From: Bacteroidaceae bacterium
GTDB lineage: Bacteria > Bacteroidota > Bacteroidia > Bacteroidales > Bacteroidaceae
Assembly: GCA_017960985.1 (NCBI GenBank)
Contig: JAGCYD010000007.1
Coordinates: forward strand, 1-42,700
Length of the DNA: 42,700 nt
Direction: 5' to 3'
Shown here: in pieces, positions 8,428-39,500 of the stretch
How the letters are laid out: every line of letters starts with the position of its first letter
Numbering within the stretch: the first letter of the stretch is position 1
Position numbers and translations under genes: made by a program
Notes under the pieces: model-generated
Databases searched by the model: none
The model's input: the letters and a program-made list of their open reading frames with translations, nothing else
What the model was told of the DNA's origin: nothing

Positions 8428-8844
8428 TTATTTCCGTCCAAAGTCCGCAGGTATCTCTCCCCAGATGGAGGTTTCCCATTTCAGAACAGGTGCATGGTCG
8501 GGATTCTCGCGGAGCCATTTTTCGGCTCGGGCGATGAGTTTGTATAGTTCCTCGGTTTTTGCGGAGCGTTCCAATTTAGTCTTACACTGCCTTTTGTTCA
8601 CCCAGAGTATGGCATTGTAACTATCGCTATAGACAGGAATCTTCTGCCCCTTCTGCTTCATTAGGGCCAGCGCATGCACGATGGCTAAAAATTCCCCGAT
8701 ATTATTGGTGCCGTGCATGGGACCGAAATGGAATACTTGCTTCCCAGAAGGTAGATGCACCCCACGATACTCCATCGGCCCAGGATTCCCCGAACATGCA
8801 GCATCAACGGCGAGAGCCGTTTCAGTTCTAAGTTTACAGTTCAT
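8428..8844 (-). CDS. rnhA: Ribonuclease H family protein
   Basis: It is predicted to cut RNA in RNA:DNA hybrids. The 138 residues contain the RNase H fold with all four acidic active-site residues: Asp14 (LAVDAACSGNPG), Glu51 (NNIGEF), Asp74 (VYSDS) and Asp134 (IPADFGRK). The N-terminal MNCKL is encoded by the 7-bp junction repeat, so the start was apparently supplied or remodelled by that repeat. Its ATG overlaps the stop of the upstream four-helix-bundle gene as ATGA (8841-8844). A later in-frame start is unlikely because the catalytic strand begins by residue 10. Whether it is the cell's main RNase HI cannot be told. Confidence 0.85.
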   Translation of the reverse strand: MNCKLRTETALAVDAACSGNPGPMEYRGVHLPSGKQVFHFGPMHGTNNIGEFLAIVHALALMKQKGQKIPVYSDSYNAILWVNKRQCKTKLERSAKTEELYKLIARAEKWLRENPDHAPVLKWETSIWGEIPADFGRK

Positions 8845-8855
8845 AGTTCACAGTT
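8836..8855. repeat. Left terminal inverted repeat (20 bp) of the argS-rnhA four-helix-bundle cassette
   Basis: This 20-bp sequence is the exact reverse complement of 9229-9248, on the other side of the four-helix-bundle gene. Both are built from a 7-bp unit, TGAACTR on the transcribed strand. It contains the ATGA that ends the four-helix-bundle gene and starts the RNase H gene. Confidence 0.9.
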
Positions 8856-9218
8856 GGGTTGTATGGGTGATGTTGATGTAGTCTTAACGATTGCAGTGAG
8901 GAGTTTTATTAACTCTTTGCATTCACTTTGTATTGACAGCGCTTCTTTTTCTTCGATATATCCACTTTCGTATAGCAGCTCAATCCAGTATTCAGACTCA
9001 CACGCTTCTTTCAAGGATATATTCATCTTTGAAACAAAGTCTGCCCGACTTTGTTCCCGGTGGGCTTCCCTAATGTTAGCTCCAATGCTTGTTCTAGAAC
9101 GAAGTAGTTGTTTAGATATTACATATTCGCGAACAGTACCTTCAGTCAGAGAACGATAAAGGCGAATTATCCGAAGGGCAAAAGCCTTACTTTTATCCGC
9201 GACGATACTTCTTTTCAT
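8841..9218 (-). CDS. Four-helix-bundle protein, S23/IVP family (copy A)
   Basis: The 125-residue basic, helical protein has the family core RSRTSIGANIREAHREQSRADFVSKM followed by LKEACESEYWIELL. These match the four-helix-bundle proteins encoded in 23S rRNA intervening sequences and related to the Avd accessory protein of diversity-generating retroelements. Function is unknown; family members are thought to bind nucleic acid through a positively charged surface. It interrupts an otherwise tight argS-rnhA-msbA operon. A perfect 20-bp inverted repeat (8836-8855, 9229-9248) flanks it, and its last codons (NCEL, stop) are written in the repeat. No reverse transcriptase is nearby, so a DGR role is not supported. 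Confidence 0.85.
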   Translation of the reverse strand: MKRSIVADKSKAFALRIIRLYRSLTEGTVREYVISKQLLRSRTSIGANIREAHREQSRADFVSKMNISLKEACESEYWIELLYESGYIEEKEALSIQSECKELIKLLTAIVKTTSTSPIQPNCEL

Positions 9219-9220
9219 AA

Positions 9221-9254
9221 TAACTATGAACTGTGAACTATGAACTGTGAACTC
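9221..9254. repeat. Heptad repeat and right terminal inverted repeat of the argS-rnhA cassette
   Basis: This is a run of about four 7-bp units (plus strand RTGAACT) between the argS stop and the four-helix-bundle start. Positions 9229-9248 pair perfectly with 8836-8855 on the other side of the gene, so the two ends could form a 20-bp stem in the mRNA. Confidence 0.88.
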
Positions 9255-24853: not shown

Positions 24854-24860
24854 CAAAGAA

Positions 24861-24955
24861 ATGTCAAATGTAAAATGTAGAATGTAAAATTATTTGTATC
24901 TTTGCAACGATATTGCTTTTGTCATTTGACATTTGCCATTTGCCATCTTACATCG
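24861..24955. repeat. Inverted 7-bp repeat tracts around the mlaE promoter
   Basis: Left tract 24861-24890 is four units of ATGTAAA type. Right tract 24923-24955 is the inverted counterpart (CATTTGC type). The ends ATGTCAAATG (24861-24870) and CATTTGACAT (24923-24932) are perfect inverse complements. Between them lies the mlaE -7 box. Confidence 0.75.
24897..24904 (+). promoter_or_regulatory. mlaE operon promoter -7 element (TATCTTTG)
   Basis: A perfect TAnnTTTG box on the plus strand, 57 nt before the mlaE ATG and divergent from the lptB box. No clear -33 partner is seen because the upstream DNA is the ATGTAAA heptad tract. Confidence 0.6.
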
Positions 24956-24961
24956 TAAACC

Positions 24962-25705
24962 ATGTTTATATTAAAGTATATCGCAGCGTTTGGCAAGTAC
25001 CTTGATTTGATGGGCAGAACCTTCTCTGTCCCCGAGCGGGTGCGTATGTTTATCAAACAATATGTCAAGGAGATGGAACAGTTGGGTGTTGATTCTATCG
25101 GCATCGTCCTGCTTATCAGTTTCTTTATCGGTGCTGTTATCTGTATTCAGATAAAACTCAACATCCAGAGCCCTTGGATGCCCACTTTCACCACAGGTTA
25201 CACCACGCGTGAGATTATGGTGTTGGAGTTCTCCTCCAGTATCATGTGTTTGATTCTTGCGGGCAAGGTGGGTTCAAATATTGCCAGCGAGATAGGCACC
25301 ATGCGTGTTACGCAGCAGATAGATGCACTTGAGATTATGGGTGTAAACTCGGCTTCGTTCCTTATCCTGCCGAAGATTCTGGGACTGATGACGATGATCC
25401 CCTTCTTGGTTGTATTCAGCATCGTTTCGGGTTTTCTTGGTGCGTATGCTACGGCGTATGCGGGCATCATCACCCCCGATGATTTGACGGTTGGCTTGCT
25501 ACATGCCTTTGTTCCCTGGTTCATCTGGATGTCTATCATCAAGAGTGTGGCTTTCGCCTTTATCATCGCCAGTGTATCGTCGTACTATGGCTATAATGTG
25601 CAGGGTGGTTCTTTCGATGTGGGTAAGGCTTCGACTAACGCAGTTGTGTCGAGTAGCATGCTGATATTGTTCGCGGATATCTTCTTGACGCAACTGCTGT
25701 CATAA
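24962..25705 (+). CDS. mlaE: MlaE-family phospholipid ABC transporter permease
   Basis: The 247-residue inner-membrane permease belongs to the system that moves phospholipids between inner and outer membranes to keep outer-membrane asymmetry. Typical MlaE sequences are visible: FFIGAVICIQIKLNI, SIMCLILAGKVGSNIASEIGTMRVTQQIDALEIMGVNS (the family's coupling region) and a terminal helix SSMLILFADIFLTQLLS. About five hydrophobic helices are present and length is standard. Its ATPase partner mlaF lies downstream, but a four-helix-bundle gene with inverted repeats separates the two. No MlaD-like gene is in the window. Confidence 0.95.
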   Translation: MFILKYIAAFGKYLDLMGRTFSVPERVRMFIKQYVKEMEQLGVDSIGIVLLISFFIGAVICIQIKLNIQSPWMPTFTTGYTTREIMVLEFSSSIMCLILAGKVGSNIASEIGTMRVTQQIDALEIMGVNSASFLILPKILGLMTMIPFLVVFSIVSGFLGAYATAYAGIITPDDLTVGLLHAFVPWFIWMSIIKSVAFAFIIASVSSYYGYNVQGGSFDVGKASTNAVVSSSMLILFADIFLTQLLS

Positions 25706-25766
25706 AAGGGAGTTAAAAGGAAATATCGGCCTACGGCCTTAGAAGTTAAAGGGGAGTTAAAAGGAC
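25704..25766. repeat. Left end of the mlaE-mlaF cassette with 13-bp terminal inverted repeat
   Basis: AAAGGGAGTTAAA (25705-25717) is the exact inverse complement of 26198-26210. A second GGGAGTTAAAA copy is at 25752-25762, and a small palindrome GGCCTACGGCC (25728-25738) lies between. The segment begins 2 nt before the end of the mlaE stop codon. Confidence 0.88.
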
Positions 25767-25801
25767 AATACTTTTGGTGCTTAAATAATATATCGGTAAG
25801 A

Positions 25802-26173
25802 ATGACCTTTAAGGATATAATTGCATGGCAGAAAGCATACGACTTTGTATTGCTTACATATAAACTGACTCGTAATTTTCCCGATTCCGAGAAGTACGGA
25901 CTTACCTCACAATTTCGGCGTGCCGCGGTATCCATTGCTGCTAATATAGCCGAGGGATATAAAAAACTGAGCAAGGCAGACAAGCTTCGTCTAATGAATG
26001 TTGCCCAAGGTAGTCTGGAAGAGTGTCGTTTCTATGTGATGCTTTCCAAAGACTTAGAATATATAACCACGGAAGAATATGAACAATTAAGTTTTGTCAT
26101 TGAAGGTGCCAGTTTCTACCTAAATGCCTATTGTAAAGGAATAAAAGATAACAATGGTCTCTCAGATTTATAA
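25802..26173 (+). CDS. Four-helix-bundle protein, S23/IVP family (copy B)
   Basis: The 123-residue helical protein has the clearest family signature in the window: DIIAWQKAYDFVLLTYKLTRNFP, then FRRAAVSIAANIAEGYKKLSKADKLRLMNVAQGSLEECRFYVMLSKDL. These correspond to helices 1-3 of the 23S-intervening-sequence proteins. It splits the mlaE-mlaF pair, which normally lie side by side. Inverted repeats AAAGGGAGTTAAA/TTTAACTCCCTTT flank it. Function is unknown; nucleic-acid binding is inferred from the family. Nothing links it to phospholipid transport, so I read it as a passenger. Confidence 0.9.
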   Translation: MTFKDIIAWQKAYDFVLLTYKLTRNFPDSEKYGLTSQFRRAAVSIAANIAEGYKKLSKADKLRLMNVAQGSLEECRFYVMLSKDLEYITTEEYEQLSFVIEGASFYLNAYCKGIKDNNGLSDL

Positions 26174-26180
26174 AACATAC

Positions 26181-26222
26181 ATTCCCTTTAACTCCCCTTT
26201 AACTCCCTTTAAACTCCCCTTA
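26181..26222. repeat. Right end of the mlaE-mlaF cassette: TTTAACTCCC repeats
   Basis: Three or four copies of an 11-bp unit (TTAACTCCCCT) run up to 6 nt before the mlaF ATG. Positions 26198-26210 are the perfect inverse of 25705-25717. Confidence 0.88.
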
Positions 26223-26227
26223 AAACA

Positions 26228-26989
26228 ATGATTGAAATAAAGAAACTATATAAGACCTTTGAGGACGGAAAGACCGTACTTCAGGACATCAACTTCACTT
26301 TTGAGGATGGGAAGACCAACCTCATTATCGGCCAGAGTGGTAGCGGTAAGACTGTATTGATGAAGAATATTGTCGGTCTGTTTGAACCTACAAAGGGCGA
26401 AATCTTATATGACGGTCGCGACTTTGTTCGTATGAGCAAGCGCGAGCGTGTTCTGCTTCGTCGTGAGATGGGTATGATATTCCAGAGCGCAGCCCTGTTC
26501 GACTCGATGTCGGTATTGGAGAATGTCATGTTCCCTTTGGATATGTTCTCCGATATGAACGAAGCCGACCGTATCAAGCGCACCAAGTTCTGTATCGACC
26601 GTGTCAATCTACAGGGAGCCGAGGAGAAGATGCCTGGTGAGATTTCGGGCGGTATGCAGAAGCGCGTAGCCATTGCCCGCGCCATAGCCCTCAATCCTAA
26701 ATATTTGTTCTGCGATGAGCCCAACTCAGGTCTTGACCCCAAGACTTCGCTCGTTATCGACGAACTCATTCACAGCATTACCCACGAGTACAAGATGACC
26801 ACCATCATGAACACCCACGACATGAATTCTGTAATGGGTATTGGTGAGCAGATTCTCTACATTCACGAGGGTTCCGTGGGTTGGACGGGTACGAAAGATG
26901 AAATCATGACTTCTACAAACGAGAAGCTCAATTCCTTCATCTTCGCCAGCGATTTGTTCCGAAAGGTAAAAGAAGCCAATCAGGAATAA
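26228..26989 (+). CDS. mlaF: MlaF-family phospholipid ABC transporter ATP-binding protein
   Basis: The 253-residue cytoplasmic ATPase pairs with MlaE. Walker A GQSGSGKT (35-42), Q-loop IFQSAALFDSMSVLENV, signature ISGGMQKRVAIARAIA (the GGM form typical of MlaF), Walker B YLFCDEPNSGLDP and switch histidine MNTHDMNSV are intact. It ends 3 nt before the convergent lipoprotein gene. Transcription from the mlaE promoter must pass through the four-helix-bundle cassette to reach it unless the cassette supplies its own promoter. Confidence 0.95.
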   Translation: MIEIKKLYKTFEDGKTVLQDINFTFEDGKTNLIIGQSGSGKTVLMKNIVGLFEPTKGEILYDGRDFVRMSKRERVLLRREMGMIFQSAALFDSMSVLENVMFPLDMFSDMNEADRIKRTKFCIDRVNLQGAEEKMPGEISGGMQKRVAIARAIALNPKYLFCDEPNSGLDPKTSLVIDELIHSITHEYKMTTIMNTHDMNSVMGIGEQILYIHEGSVGWTGTKDEIMTSTNEKLNSFIFASDLFRKVKEANQE

Positions 26990-28717: not shown

Positions 28718-29638
28718 TTAGTCTCTCAAATCATACCCATACGCTCGTAGTGCACGGTCGTTGTTTCGCCAGTCCTTGTCCACTTTGACGAACACTTCCA
28801 GATAGATGCTCTTCCCGAAGAACTTCTCCAGACTTTTACGGGCTCCGGTCGATACGCGCTTCAGCGCCACGCCTTGGTGTCCGATGATGATGCCCTTCTG
28901 GCTTTCGCGTTCTACATAGATAACGGCGTTGATATGGATATTCTTGTCTGTTTCCTTGAATTGTTCTACGACCACCTCGCAGGCGTAGGGAATCTCCTTG
29001 TCGTAATACAGCAGAATCTTCTCGCGCATGATTTCCGTCACGAAGAAGCGTGCCGGTTTGTCCGTCCATTGGTCCTTGTCGAAATAGGCAGGACCGTCGG
29101 GCAGTAGTTCCTTGATGCGTTTCAGTACGGCATCGATATTGAACTTGTGCAGGGCACTGATAGGGATGATTTCAGCCTTGGGCAGCAACTTTTGCCACTT
29201 CTCCACAATTTCTTCGAGTTGTTGCTGGCTACTCCCCTCGCCCTTTGGAGAGGGGTTGGGGGTGAGGCTGTCTATTTTGTTAATGAGGACGAGCACGGGT
29301 ATTTCGAGTTTCCCCACCCGTTCCAGAAAGTCGGCATTCTTGTCGGGTGTTTCCACCATATCGGTCACATAGAGCAGGATGTCAGCATCTTGCAGGGCAC
29401 CGACACTGAACTGCAACATGTTTTCCTGCAGTTTGTAGTTCGGTTTCAGCACGCCTGGTGTGTCCGAAAAGCAGATTTGCATGTCGGGGGTATTCAGTAT
29501 GCCCATGATGCGGTGGCGCGTGGTCTGAGCCTTGAAGGTGGCAATCGATATGCGCTCACCCACCAACAGGTTCATCAGCGTGCTCTTACCCACATTGGGG
29601 TTCCCCACGATATTTACAAATCCCGACTTAAAACTCAT
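28718..29638 (-). CDS. era: GTPase Era, with a palindrome-encoded insertion
   Basis: Era binds the 3' end of 16S rRNA and helps assemble the 30S subunit. The 306 residues have G1 GNPNVGKST (12-20), G3 DTPG, G4 NKID (120-123) and a C-terminal KH domain with [11 protein letters not shown]. Just after the G4 motif, residues about 124-137 ([14 protein letters not shown]) are an insertion encoded by a GC-rich palindromic element (29229-29268). That element recurs in dusB of this window. The insertion is in frame and falls in the loop after NKxD, so the GTPase should still work. The start lies just after the 9-bp repeat tract that ends fabH. Confidence 0.96.
29229..29268 (-). repeat. GC-rich palindromic element inserted in frame in era
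   Basis: The hairpin arms CCCCTC (29234-29239) and GAGGGG (29250-29255) flank a partly paired middle. Read on the coding strand it matches 40319-40357 inside dusB over about 35 nt with one gap, in the same orientation and reading frame (PNPSP). Confidence 0.88.
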
Positions 29639-30764: not shown

Positions 30765-30826
30765 AAAGGGAGTTAAAGAGAAGTATCGGCTTTTAACTCC
30801 CCTTTAACTCCCCTTTAACTCCCTTT
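30765..30826. repeat. Gene-less copy of the AAAGGGAGTTAAA inverted-repeat cassette between rpmF and fabH
   Basis: AAAGGGAGTTAAA (30765-30777) and its perfect inverse (30814-30826) enclose 36 nt, which includes AAGTATCGGC and three 11-bp TTAACTCCCCT units. The terminal 13-mers are identical to those of the mlaE-mlaF cassette, and AAGTATCGGC parallels AAATATCGGC at 25721-25730. Confidence 0.9.
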
Positions 30827-38153: not shown

Positions 38154-38165
38154 GAAGTGAGAAGG

Positions 38166-38231
38166 GTAATCGGAGTACTCGGAGTAATCAGAATAATCCG
38201 AGTAATCAGAATAGTCAGAATAATCAGAGAA
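38166..38231 (+). repeat. 9-bp repeat tract at the M28-sufE junction
   Basis: About seven degenerate units of GARTAATCN run from 12 nt after the M28 stop to 1 nt before the sufE ATG. One reading frame has TAA in every unit; the other two are open. Confidence 0.88.
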
Positions 38232-38232
38232 T

Positions 38233-38655
38233 ATGACCATCAACGAAATACAAGACGAGATTATAGAAGAGTTCACCGAACTCGACGATTGGATGGATCG
38301 TTACCAACTGCTTATCGATATGGGTAGCGAACAGCCGCCCCTGCCCGAGCAGTATAAGACGGAGCAGAATCTGATTGACGGCTGTCAGAGTCGTGTGTGG
38401 CTACAGGCCGACTTGGTGGACGGCAAGATTCACTTTCAGGCAGAGAGTGATGCCCTGATTGTAAAGGGTATCGTCACCTTGCTGCTCCGTGTGCTGAACG
38501 ACCAGACGCCCAAGGACATCCTTGATGCCGACCTGTACTTTATCGAGAAGATAGGTTTGCGCGAGCATCTGTCCCCCACACGCTCCAATGGTCTGCTGGC
38601 CATGATGAAGCAGATAAAGATGTATGCCTTGGCATTTAGCCAAAAGAAGAGTTGA
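38233..38655 (+). CDS. sufE: SufE-family sulfur acceptor protein
   Basis: It accepts persulfide sulfur from the cysteine desulfurase SufS for iron-sulfur cluster assembly. The 140 residues contain the acceptor cysteine in LIDGCQSRVW (Cys51) and the SufE-typical ends (MTINEIQDEIIEEFTELDDWMDRYQLLIDMG; LSPTRSNGLLAMMKQIKMYA). Length is standard. No other suf gene is adjacent. It is bracketed on both sides by the 9-bp repeat, so its own regulatory sequences may have been replaced by repeats. Confidence 0.95.
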   Translation: MTINEIQDEIIEEFTELDDWMDRYQLLIDMGSEQPPLPEQYKTEQNLIDGCQSRVWLQADLVDGKIHFQAESDALIVKGIVTLLLRVLNDQTPKDILDADLYFIEKIGLREHLSPTRSNGLLAMMKQIKMYALAFSQKKS

Positions 38656-38657
38656 GG

Positions 38658-39500
38658 ATGAGGGATTATCAGAATAATCAGAATAATCTGAGTAGTCAGA
38701 ATACTCGGAATACTCAGAATACTCAGAATATTCCGAGTACTCCGAGTGATTCGAGAGACAGCCATTTATTTCTGCCTCAGCACGGCCATTACCGCCAACT
38801 GCGGGTGTACAAGGTGGCGGAAGCTCTTTACGACCTCACATTTCTGTTCTGTCAGCGTTTCCTTCCAGCTCATGGTGACAGAACGGTGGACCAAATGGTG
38901 CAAGCGGCGCGCTCGGGCAAGCAGAACATCGCCGAGGGCAATCAGGCAGCGGCTACTTCGTCTGAAACGGAAATTAAACTGACCAATGTAGCGCGTGCCA
39001 GCATAGAAGAGTTATTAGACGATTACGAGGATTATTTGCGCACTCGTTCCTTGTCACAATGGGGAACCAGTCATCCACGCCTTGCTCCTTTACGCAACTG
39101 GACTCGCAACGACCTTTTCTTCCAGCAATACAAGAGCAAGGCTGCCTGTATGACTGACGAAGAAATGGCCAATCTTGGTATCACACTTTGTCATCAGGTC
39201 ATCTACATGTTGGGGCAACTGCTGAAGACACAACAAAAACGCTTTGTGGAGCAGGGGGGGATTAAGGAGCGCATGCATGCTGCCCGCACAGGCTATCGCC
39301 AACAGCAGGATGCTCAGTTTACTGCTCTTCAGCGAGAAAATGCCGCACTGCGCCAGCGTATCGCTCAGTTAGAAGAGGAGGTGAGGATGCTGAAGGGGCA
39401 GAGTAGTCAGAATGATCCGAGTAATCAGAGTAATCTGAGTAATCCGAATAATCCGATTACTCTGAATAATCAGAGTATTCCGAGTAATCTGAAAGATTAG
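38658..39500 (+). CDS. Four-helix-bundle suffix-domain protein (copy C), both ends encoded by 9-bp repeats
   Basis: I start at the ATG of 38658-38660, 2 nt after the sufE stop, giving 280 residues; a TTG at 38652 is possible. Residues about 1-38 (runs of Asn, Gln, Ser, Pro, Thr) and about 247-280 are translations of the GARTAATCN tracts. The core (about 48-200) is the four-helix family: LRVYKVAEALYDLTFLFCQRFLP, QAARSGKQNIAEGNQAAATS, ARASIEELLDDYEDYLRTR. The C-terminal suffix is a coiled coil (about 215-245, QRENAALRQRIAQLEEEVRML). It appears to be the larger 'four helix bundle suffix' variant. Translation of the low-complexity ends is likely but unproven. Function unknown. Confidence 0.85.
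   Translation: MRDYQNNQNNLSSQNTRNTQNTQNIPSTPSDSRDSHLFLPQHGHYRQLRVYKVAEALYDLTFLFCQRFLPAHGDRTVDQMVQAARSGKQNIAEGNQAAATSSETEIKLTNVARASIEELLDDYEDYLRTRSLSQWGTSHPRLAPLRNWTRNDLFFQQYKSKAACMTDEEMANLGITLCHQVIYMLGQLLKTQQKRFVEQGGIKERMHAARTGYRQQQDAQFTALQRENAALRQRIAQLEEEVRMLKGQSSQNDPSNQSNLSNPNNPITLNNQSIPSNLKD
38661..38757 (+). repeat. 9-bp repeat tract at the sufE-copy C junction (coding)
   Basis: About ten degenerate GARTAATCN units begin at the sufE stop and form the first codons of the four-helix gene, in the frame that reads as Asn/Gln/Ser/Pro-rich peptide. Confidence 0.88.
39405..39497 (+). repeat. 9-bp repeat tract at the copy C-dusB junction (coding)
   Basis: About ten GARTAATCN units encode the C-terminus of the four-helix gene up to 12 nt before the dusB ATG. 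An internal inverted repeat TACTCTG/CAGAGTA lies near 39459-39478. Confidence 0.88.

Follow-up and report, generated by a model that had tools for sequence, protein, structure and literature searches.

Genes of the S23 family, the protein family of the 23S rRNA intervening sequences (IVS), lie between inverted arrays of short tandem repeats far more often than other genes do, and the repeat unit is tied to the lineage of the protein. These brackets point to a kind of mobile element so far undescribed rather than to an oddity of a single site. We consider that they probably constitute a dispersed family of mobile-type DNA repeats with an S23 gene as the core and non-autonomous gene-less copies, without a known transposase. 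Arguing for this reading are the flank enrichment, units shared within protein lineages, the change of units at the same site, a match at grpE-dnaJ, genome-specific amplification, arrays within IleRS, empty sites and a low dN/dS; arguing against it are a same-genome test, two relatives (G021 and G026), the small number of strict hairpins, the S23 loci that score below the flank threshold and the lack of a clear target-site duplication.

A cassette between mlaE and mlaF and a gene-less twin between rpmF and fabH

The window, by which we mean the whole 42,700-nucleotide stretch of a Bacteroidaceae genome that was analyzed, carries a cassette of this type (copy B) at the mlaE-mlaF junction and a gene-less copy further downstream:

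24962-25705, plus strand: mlaE, the upstream host gene (PF02405, E 1e-62)
25703-25765, unstranded: left arm, in which a small inner palindrome, CGGCCTACGGCC, separates two copies of the 11-bp-unit repeat; begins at the mlaE stop codon
25802-26173, plus strand: S23 four-helix bundle gene, copy B, 123 aa (PF05635, TIGR02436, structure model)
26182-26224, unstranded: right arm, three inverted unit copies, ending directly before mlaF
26228-26989, plus strand: mlaF-like ABC ATPase gene, the downstream host gene (PF00005)
30765-30826, unstranded: gene-less 11-bp-unit hairpin between rpmF and fabH (sequence, repeat search)

The first-pass annotation had described 13-bp ends, AAAGGGAGTTAAA at 25705-25717 on the plus strand with its inverse at 26198-26210, and identical ends spaced 36 nt apart at 30765-30777 and 30814-30826, with agreement also in the adjacent inner bases (AAATATCGGC and AAGTATCGGC); all of this was confirmed at these positions, and the outer spans are 506 bp for the cassette and 62 bp for the rpmF-fabH copy. 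With up to two mismatches allowed, the 13-mer has nine matches in the whole window against 0.78 expected, and none of 100 shuffles reached nine, so the ends are not due to chance. The exact 13-mer occurs six times in the genome of origin (an assembly of 1.999 Mb, 83.8% complete) and its reversed control not at all. A repeat search showed that the ends are parts of tandem arrays of an 11-bp unit, approximately AGTTAAAGGGG, and not single 13-mers. The rpmF-fabH hairpin shares 27 identical nucleotides with the right arm of copy B, and on the minus strand its RNA fold has a z-score of -4.9. The two sites had been presented as the occupied and the empty form of one element; a gene-less copy with the same unit is indeed there, but rpmF-fabH is another site and "empty form" is therefore loose, whereas true empty sites are seen in relatives.

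The S23 protein

Copy B belongs to the S23 (23S_rRNA_IVP) family, since it lies above the curated cut-offs of both models: PF05635 at 118.1 bits (cut-off 33.8, E 2.5e-34) and TIGR02436 at 110.5 bits (cut-off 24, E 4.5e-32). This match bears out the kinship with the IVS protein proposed in the first-pass annotation. In Pfam the gene matches PF05635 and bAvd only. We know of no catalytic domain in S23 proteins. The predicted structure of copy B is a four-helix bundle (mean pLDDT 95.2), nearest in Foldseek to 2gsc and 2rld and then to Avd, the protein of diversity-generating retroelements. The model shares the Avd fold (TMq 0.77 to 4dwl and 0.76 to 8ub7), although sequence identity is 11% and the DivGenRetAVD score, 44.4 bits, is below its cut-off of 80. 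The accessible text of PMC4990558 describes the 2gsc protein as a homopentamer and the function of the S23/IVS protein as not known. All 182 S23 proteins compared have Q37 and E51, E74 is present in 181, S44 and N48 in 180 and R40 in 177, and the median dN/dS is 0.044 (nine usable of 11 related pairs), which indicates purifying selection. A role in defence was also considered and was not supported, as neither of the two S23 proteins scanned is hit by a PADLOC model.

Further copies and arrays in the window and genome

Beside copy B, the window holds two further S23-type genes, in 7-bp and 9-bp arrays, and a further gene-less array pair:

8823-9253, minus strand: S23 copy A element (gene 8841-9218), inverted arrays of the 7-bp unit AACTRTG at both ends
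24859-24934, unstranded: gene-less inverted arrays of the 7-bp type, between a minus-strand gene and mlaE (repeat scan)
38163-39500, plus strand: S23 copy C (gene 38652-39500) with a suffix domain at its C-terminus; three arrays of a 9-bp unit that lie in part within the ORF

The arrays at 24859-24934 match the arms of an S23 locus of another species (L346) with a score of 23. The 9-bp arrays of copy C (38652-38760 and 39399-39500) read through in the ORF as three-codon repeats, and from its sequence this suffix-domain S23 protein may carry translated arms.

PF05635 matches the genome at seven places, that of copy C being below the curated cut-off. By reading, all seven adjoin short tandem repeats whose units vary by place, and wherever both sides are present the repeats are inverted across the S23 gene (one place is cut by a contig end). 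Pairs of inverted tandem arrays numbered 13 in 1.24 of the 2.0 Mb, compared with none in one Markov control; a short-loop scan gave nine against 0, 0 and 0 in controls, a few of the nine being plain coding palindromes.

Gene-less copies of the 11-bp unit lie at rpmF-fabH, acpP-fabF and grpE-dnaJ, the last two named by sequence reading. The grpE-dnaJ copy aligns over 56 columns, among them the inner palindrome, with the arm of an S23 element from a different species in the genus (score 34 against a median of 8), a pattern such as an internally deleted derivative would be expected to leave. The inference in the first-pass annotation of an IVS-like element family thus stands in so far as gene-bearing and gene-less copies are dispersed at junctions of housekeeping genes; the level at which they spread is considered below.

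Two other sequences in this genome bear mention. A DJ-1/PfpI gene, which is not S23, sits in inverted short arrays with weak arms (L276:10593-11185, score 14). Within the Era-like GTPase gene of the window (28718-29638, minus strand), positions 29226-29266 hold a palindrome, CTCCCCTCGCCCTTTGGAGAGGGG, that resembles the repeats of DUF559 genes and is, by reading, apparently in frame.

Inverted flanks of S23 genes across bacteria

Among the Bacteroidota genomes searched, 90 of 118 have an S23 match, often several. We sampled seven S23 loci from the genome of origin, 29 from the genus, 30 from the phylum and 80 named loci, all of them best matches and none random; the named loci are the best 80 of at least 570 and were found with patterns over part of the conserved protein stretch, the others by HMM. 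The named set spans Acidobacteria, Geobacter and other Desulfuromonadales, a planctomycete, Poribacteria and Clostridia. For 142 of the 146 loci (four had flanks that were too short) the upstream flank was scored against the inverted downstream flank, with 567 other genes of the named loci as the control. An earlier control with shuffled flanks, in which 23 of 64 exceeded the shuffled 99% level, was too lax because shuffled repeats remain repeats, and was replaced by these other genes.

Scores of at least 13 were found at 90 of 142 S23 loci versus 23 of 567 other genes, and scores of at least 10 at 121 versus 136 (Mann-Whitney p 1e-27 for 78 named, 6e-15 for 28 genus and 3e-11 for 30 phylum loci). 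The repeats therefore accompany S23 genes well beyond expectation, which the first-pass annotation had made a test of the element idea. Of the 23 high-scoring controls, Pfam assigns seven to S23 itself, two to DUF559 and one to PDDEXK_3. The remaining 52 S23 loci score below 13; copy C (L013) is below the threshold because its arrays lie partly inside the ORF. Flanks in direct orientation are not enriched (p 0.94 for the genome of origin, 0.96 for the genus and 0.6 for the named set), the phylum set being borderline (p 0.046). The best array period, determined for 116 loci, is 7 nt in 62, 8 nt in 23, 14 nt in 17 and another length in 14. A single conserved terminal motif was ruled out, as units vary with lineage.

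Small genes of the DUF559 and PDDEXK_3 families (L107:702-1079, L109:9663-10106, L123:2664-3062; L377-L395, L404-L431) also have inverted flank repeats, in a style of their own. The measurements cover 14 of 30 DUF559 loci (22 were listed, long open frames being excluded) and 28 of 30 PDDEXK_3 loci: inverted flanks score at least 13 at 12 of these 14 and 17 of these 28, and direct ones at 11 and 8. A wider class of small genes with cognate palindromes may exist. One gene found among the controls (L088:13179-13754) lies in a strong inverted repeat and has no Pfam match; by its motifs we take it to be RAYT-like.

The repeat unit is tied to the protein lineage

Arms were compared among the 133 loci whose own arm score was at least 12. 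Arm similarity grows with protein identity in the sense orientation, while in the opposite orientation 0 of 46 pairs with at least 70% identity are similar. For pairs at different sites, whose outer flanks do not match, units are shared by 15 of 23 pairs at 70% identity or more, 23 of 139 at 60-70%, 43 of 1174 at 50-60% and 30 of 2278 at 40-50%, and the observed mean was reached in none of 1000 permutations, which ignore relatedness. Since units are shared without matching outer flanks, gene and arms travel together.

Within one site, species may have different units: they differ in 47 of 98 same-site pairs, and the mean left-right score is 19.2 for an element's own arms compared with 8.2 crosswise, the former being high partly by selection because loci were chosen for an own score of at least 12. 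Either both arms are rewritten together when the unit changes at one site, or the junction is resettled by different elements.

Empty, gene-less and filled sites in relatives

We examined the two junctions in the best 29 of 60 genus relatives searched, with one genome per species. None of the 29 has an S23 gene at mlaE-mlaF; presence of the gene at this place in all relatives, which the first-pass annotation had named as fatal to the element idea, was thus not seen. In 22 relatives the two genes overlap or are separated by at most 10 nt (12 of these have a 4-nt ATGA overlap), six have arrays without a gene (clear hairpins in G027, G034 and G052), and one has another spacer. Apart from the insertion itself, the filled site and the ATGA overlap differ by no more than a 2-bp duplication; this comparison gave no clear target-site duplication. 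At rpmF-fabH, by reading, 11 relatives have inverted arrays of other units, eight have gaps of at most 8 nt, and the remaining ten have another hairpin, often terminator-like, or a spacer. G021 has inverted arrays at rpmF-fabH, and a profile search of its genome gave no PF05635 match.

A comparable situation is found within ileS. The IleRS spacer is 17 residues long in 26 of 30 listed proteins; in the genome of origin and two relatives (3 of 30) in-frame inserts derived from inverted arrays add 13-31 residues, with a different unit in each, and in a fourth species the insert is of a different type. The unit of the insert in the genome of origin is that of S23 copy A. By these sequences the IleRS loop (L304-L307) is apparently a repeated landing place in an essential protein, with extra residues in 4 of the 30 listed species.

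Genome-specific amplification of a unit

In G045 an S23 gene (L347) is flanked by the unit GAGAATGA. This unit has 233 matches in G026, 86 in G057, 58 in G045, 52 in G001 and 15 in G017, and none in three other species of the genus (G000, G012 and G050); these counts include each overlapping match within an array, so that the places are fewer. The reversed pattern has one match across all eight genomes. Thirty stretches were fetched and represent 21 distinct places, of which five pass a strict hairpin test (one of these with S23) and two more are rpmF-fabH hairpins that the strict test missed, the rest being one-sided or weak-looking. G026 has one S23 match, with a different unit, and the parent of its GAGAATGA copies may therefore be lost, unassembled or acting from elsewhere.

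More generally, S23 loci of the same genome match gene-less copies no better than those of other genomes (Mann-Whitney p 0.31). This test used 21 gene-less array sequences, leaving out junctions without arrays; for four of them the top match among 77 S23 loci came from the same genome, the genomes being incomplete and many S23 loci lying outside the comparison.

The arrays could instead be a mutational by-product, in which slippage and template switching would generate inverted short tandem arrays where spacers are loose, S23 being a mere passenger. Units do vary freely, many arrays are one-sided, and arrays are present in a genome with no PF05635 match. We nevertheless regard this as very unlikely, as unlinked sites share units that track the S23 lineage, such flanks are rare at other genes of the same loci, and copy number is genome-specific.

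The hairpins might also be regulatory, S23 being an RNA- or DNA-binding regulator and the arrays of its unit a regulon, with no mobility involved. The 11-bp unit is common to the mla, fabH, acpP-fabF and grpE-dnaJ junctions, three of which concern lipids, and the strong purifying selection and nearly invariant polar residues of S23 are consistent with such a role. However, relatives have other units or none at these junctions, and copies within ileS and match counts in the hundreds are unlike a regulon, making this explanation quite unlikely.

Spread at the RNA or the DNA level

A further explanation, in line with the RNA-level excision or processing suggested in the first-pass annotation, is that the cassette is an IVS-like RNA element, whose arms would pair in the polycistronic mRNA so that cleavage of the stem by RNase III releases the S23 message; it would spread via RNA and a reverse transcriptase acting in trans, with S23 in an Avd-like role. 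The protein family is shared with the 23S rRNA IVS, whose ends, according to the accessible text of PMC4990558, form a stem that is cut by RNase III, and Avd follows directly after the S23 structures in Foldseek. Both neighbours also share the direction of the gene at 57 of 67 named S23 loci versus 268 of 439 controls (p 5e-5), and the rpmF-fabH hairpins fold better in the sense orientation in 10 of 12 species (mlaE-mlaF, 1 of 6; ileS, 1 of 3).

Against this, arm mismatches show no G-U asymmetry in favour of the sense strand (134 sense, 180 antisense), and among 133 elements the more stable stem is the antisense one in 78 and the sense one in 47, with eight ties (p 0.012). In the genus set, where flanks were short and there was no control, both neighbours run in the direction of the S23 gene at 21 of 58 loci, compared with 20 of 27 in the phylum set, and the array pair at 24859-24934 lies between divergent genes. 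Co-direction is compatible with an RNA route and also with elements simply being tolerated in operons, and selection on a sense RNA stem finds no consistent support in the G-U mismatches or stem energies. We therefore favour, with modest confidence, spread at the DNA level, and consider the RNA element rather unlikely.

Discussion

In the mobile DNA repeat family that we favour, a full copy in this genome would span approximately 400-550 bp and consist of an array of a 7-11 bp unit, the S23 gene and an inverted array, while gene-less copies, which keep the arms and at times the inner sequence too, would be non-autonomous derivatives. The S23 protein, which has a pentameric solved relative and resembles the reverse-transcriptase cofactor Avd, would recognise the arms that belong to its lineage, probably in the form of single-stranded DNA hairpins. 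A host or trans-acting enzyme would copy the hairpin, with or without the gene, into tolerated sites such as operon junctions and in-frame protein loops, and gene-less copies would move with the help of S23. The unit would change through slippage, and the two arms would stay complementary because one is copied from the other.

REP/REPIN sequences and their RAYT (TnpA-REP) genes offer a precedent, in which a small gene lies in inverted repeats and gene-less copies occur elsewhere in the genome. The dispersed gene-less copies of the cassette repeat (rpmF-fabH, acpP-fabF and grpE-dnaJ) resemble this arrangement, whereas the unit of the cassette drifts by lineage and repeats in tandem. Pfam detects no Y1/HUH transposase gene in the element, whose gene is PF05635/bAvd with MlaE and the ABC ATPase as neighbours; the cassette thus works like REP/RAYT without being a member. 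Other possible look-alikes are the heptanucleotide repeats of the Nostoc tRNA-Leu intron and the STRR arrays of cyanobacteria.

The 23S rRNA IVS with an S23 ORF has the same protein family and complementary ends around the ORF (accessible text of PMC4990558), but the cassette sits between protein genes, its arms are tandem arrays of a private unit, and its gene-less copies are dispersed. It is distinct from a 23S rRNA IVS despite sharing the protein family, since it is placed outside rRNA, between mlaE and mlaF, and a tRNA is the sole Rfam hit of the window. Rickettsia palindromic elements are palindromes inserted in frame in protein genes, and the accessible text of PMC10969869 names no S23 partner for them; S23 brackets, in contrast, have private tandem units. 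The BrickBuilt MITE of Porphyromonas gingivalis is a Bacteroidota repeat element with a minisatellite, and differs in having 23-nt direct repeats within IS-like terminal repeats (PMC4596501, whose accessible text does not contain the term "four helix"). No description of S23 genes between short tandem arrays was found in the accessible literature, including the available portions of PMC4990558, PMC8700078, PMC4596501, PMC10969869 and PMC10053308; preprints and most subscription papers were outside its scope.

A broader proposal, which is possible and which we put forward tentatively, is that S23 proteins determine the specificity, and perhaps provide the catalysis, of a widespread class of bacterial mobile elements with self-renewing inverted-array ends. 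Each lineage would drift to a unit of its own, with the protein following, and the genome would fill with gene-less copies; the 23S rRNA IVS would be the branch that dwells in rRNA, and activity or binding would reside in the near-invariant Q-R-S-N-E face of helix 2 together with E74.

The rule that each protein lineage has its own repeat would allow a direct binding test and offers a handle on the spread of such sequences. If true, it would explain recurrent hairpins in operon junctions and in-frame inserts in essential genes such as ileS, and would provide a natural example of the joint drift of a protein and its target.
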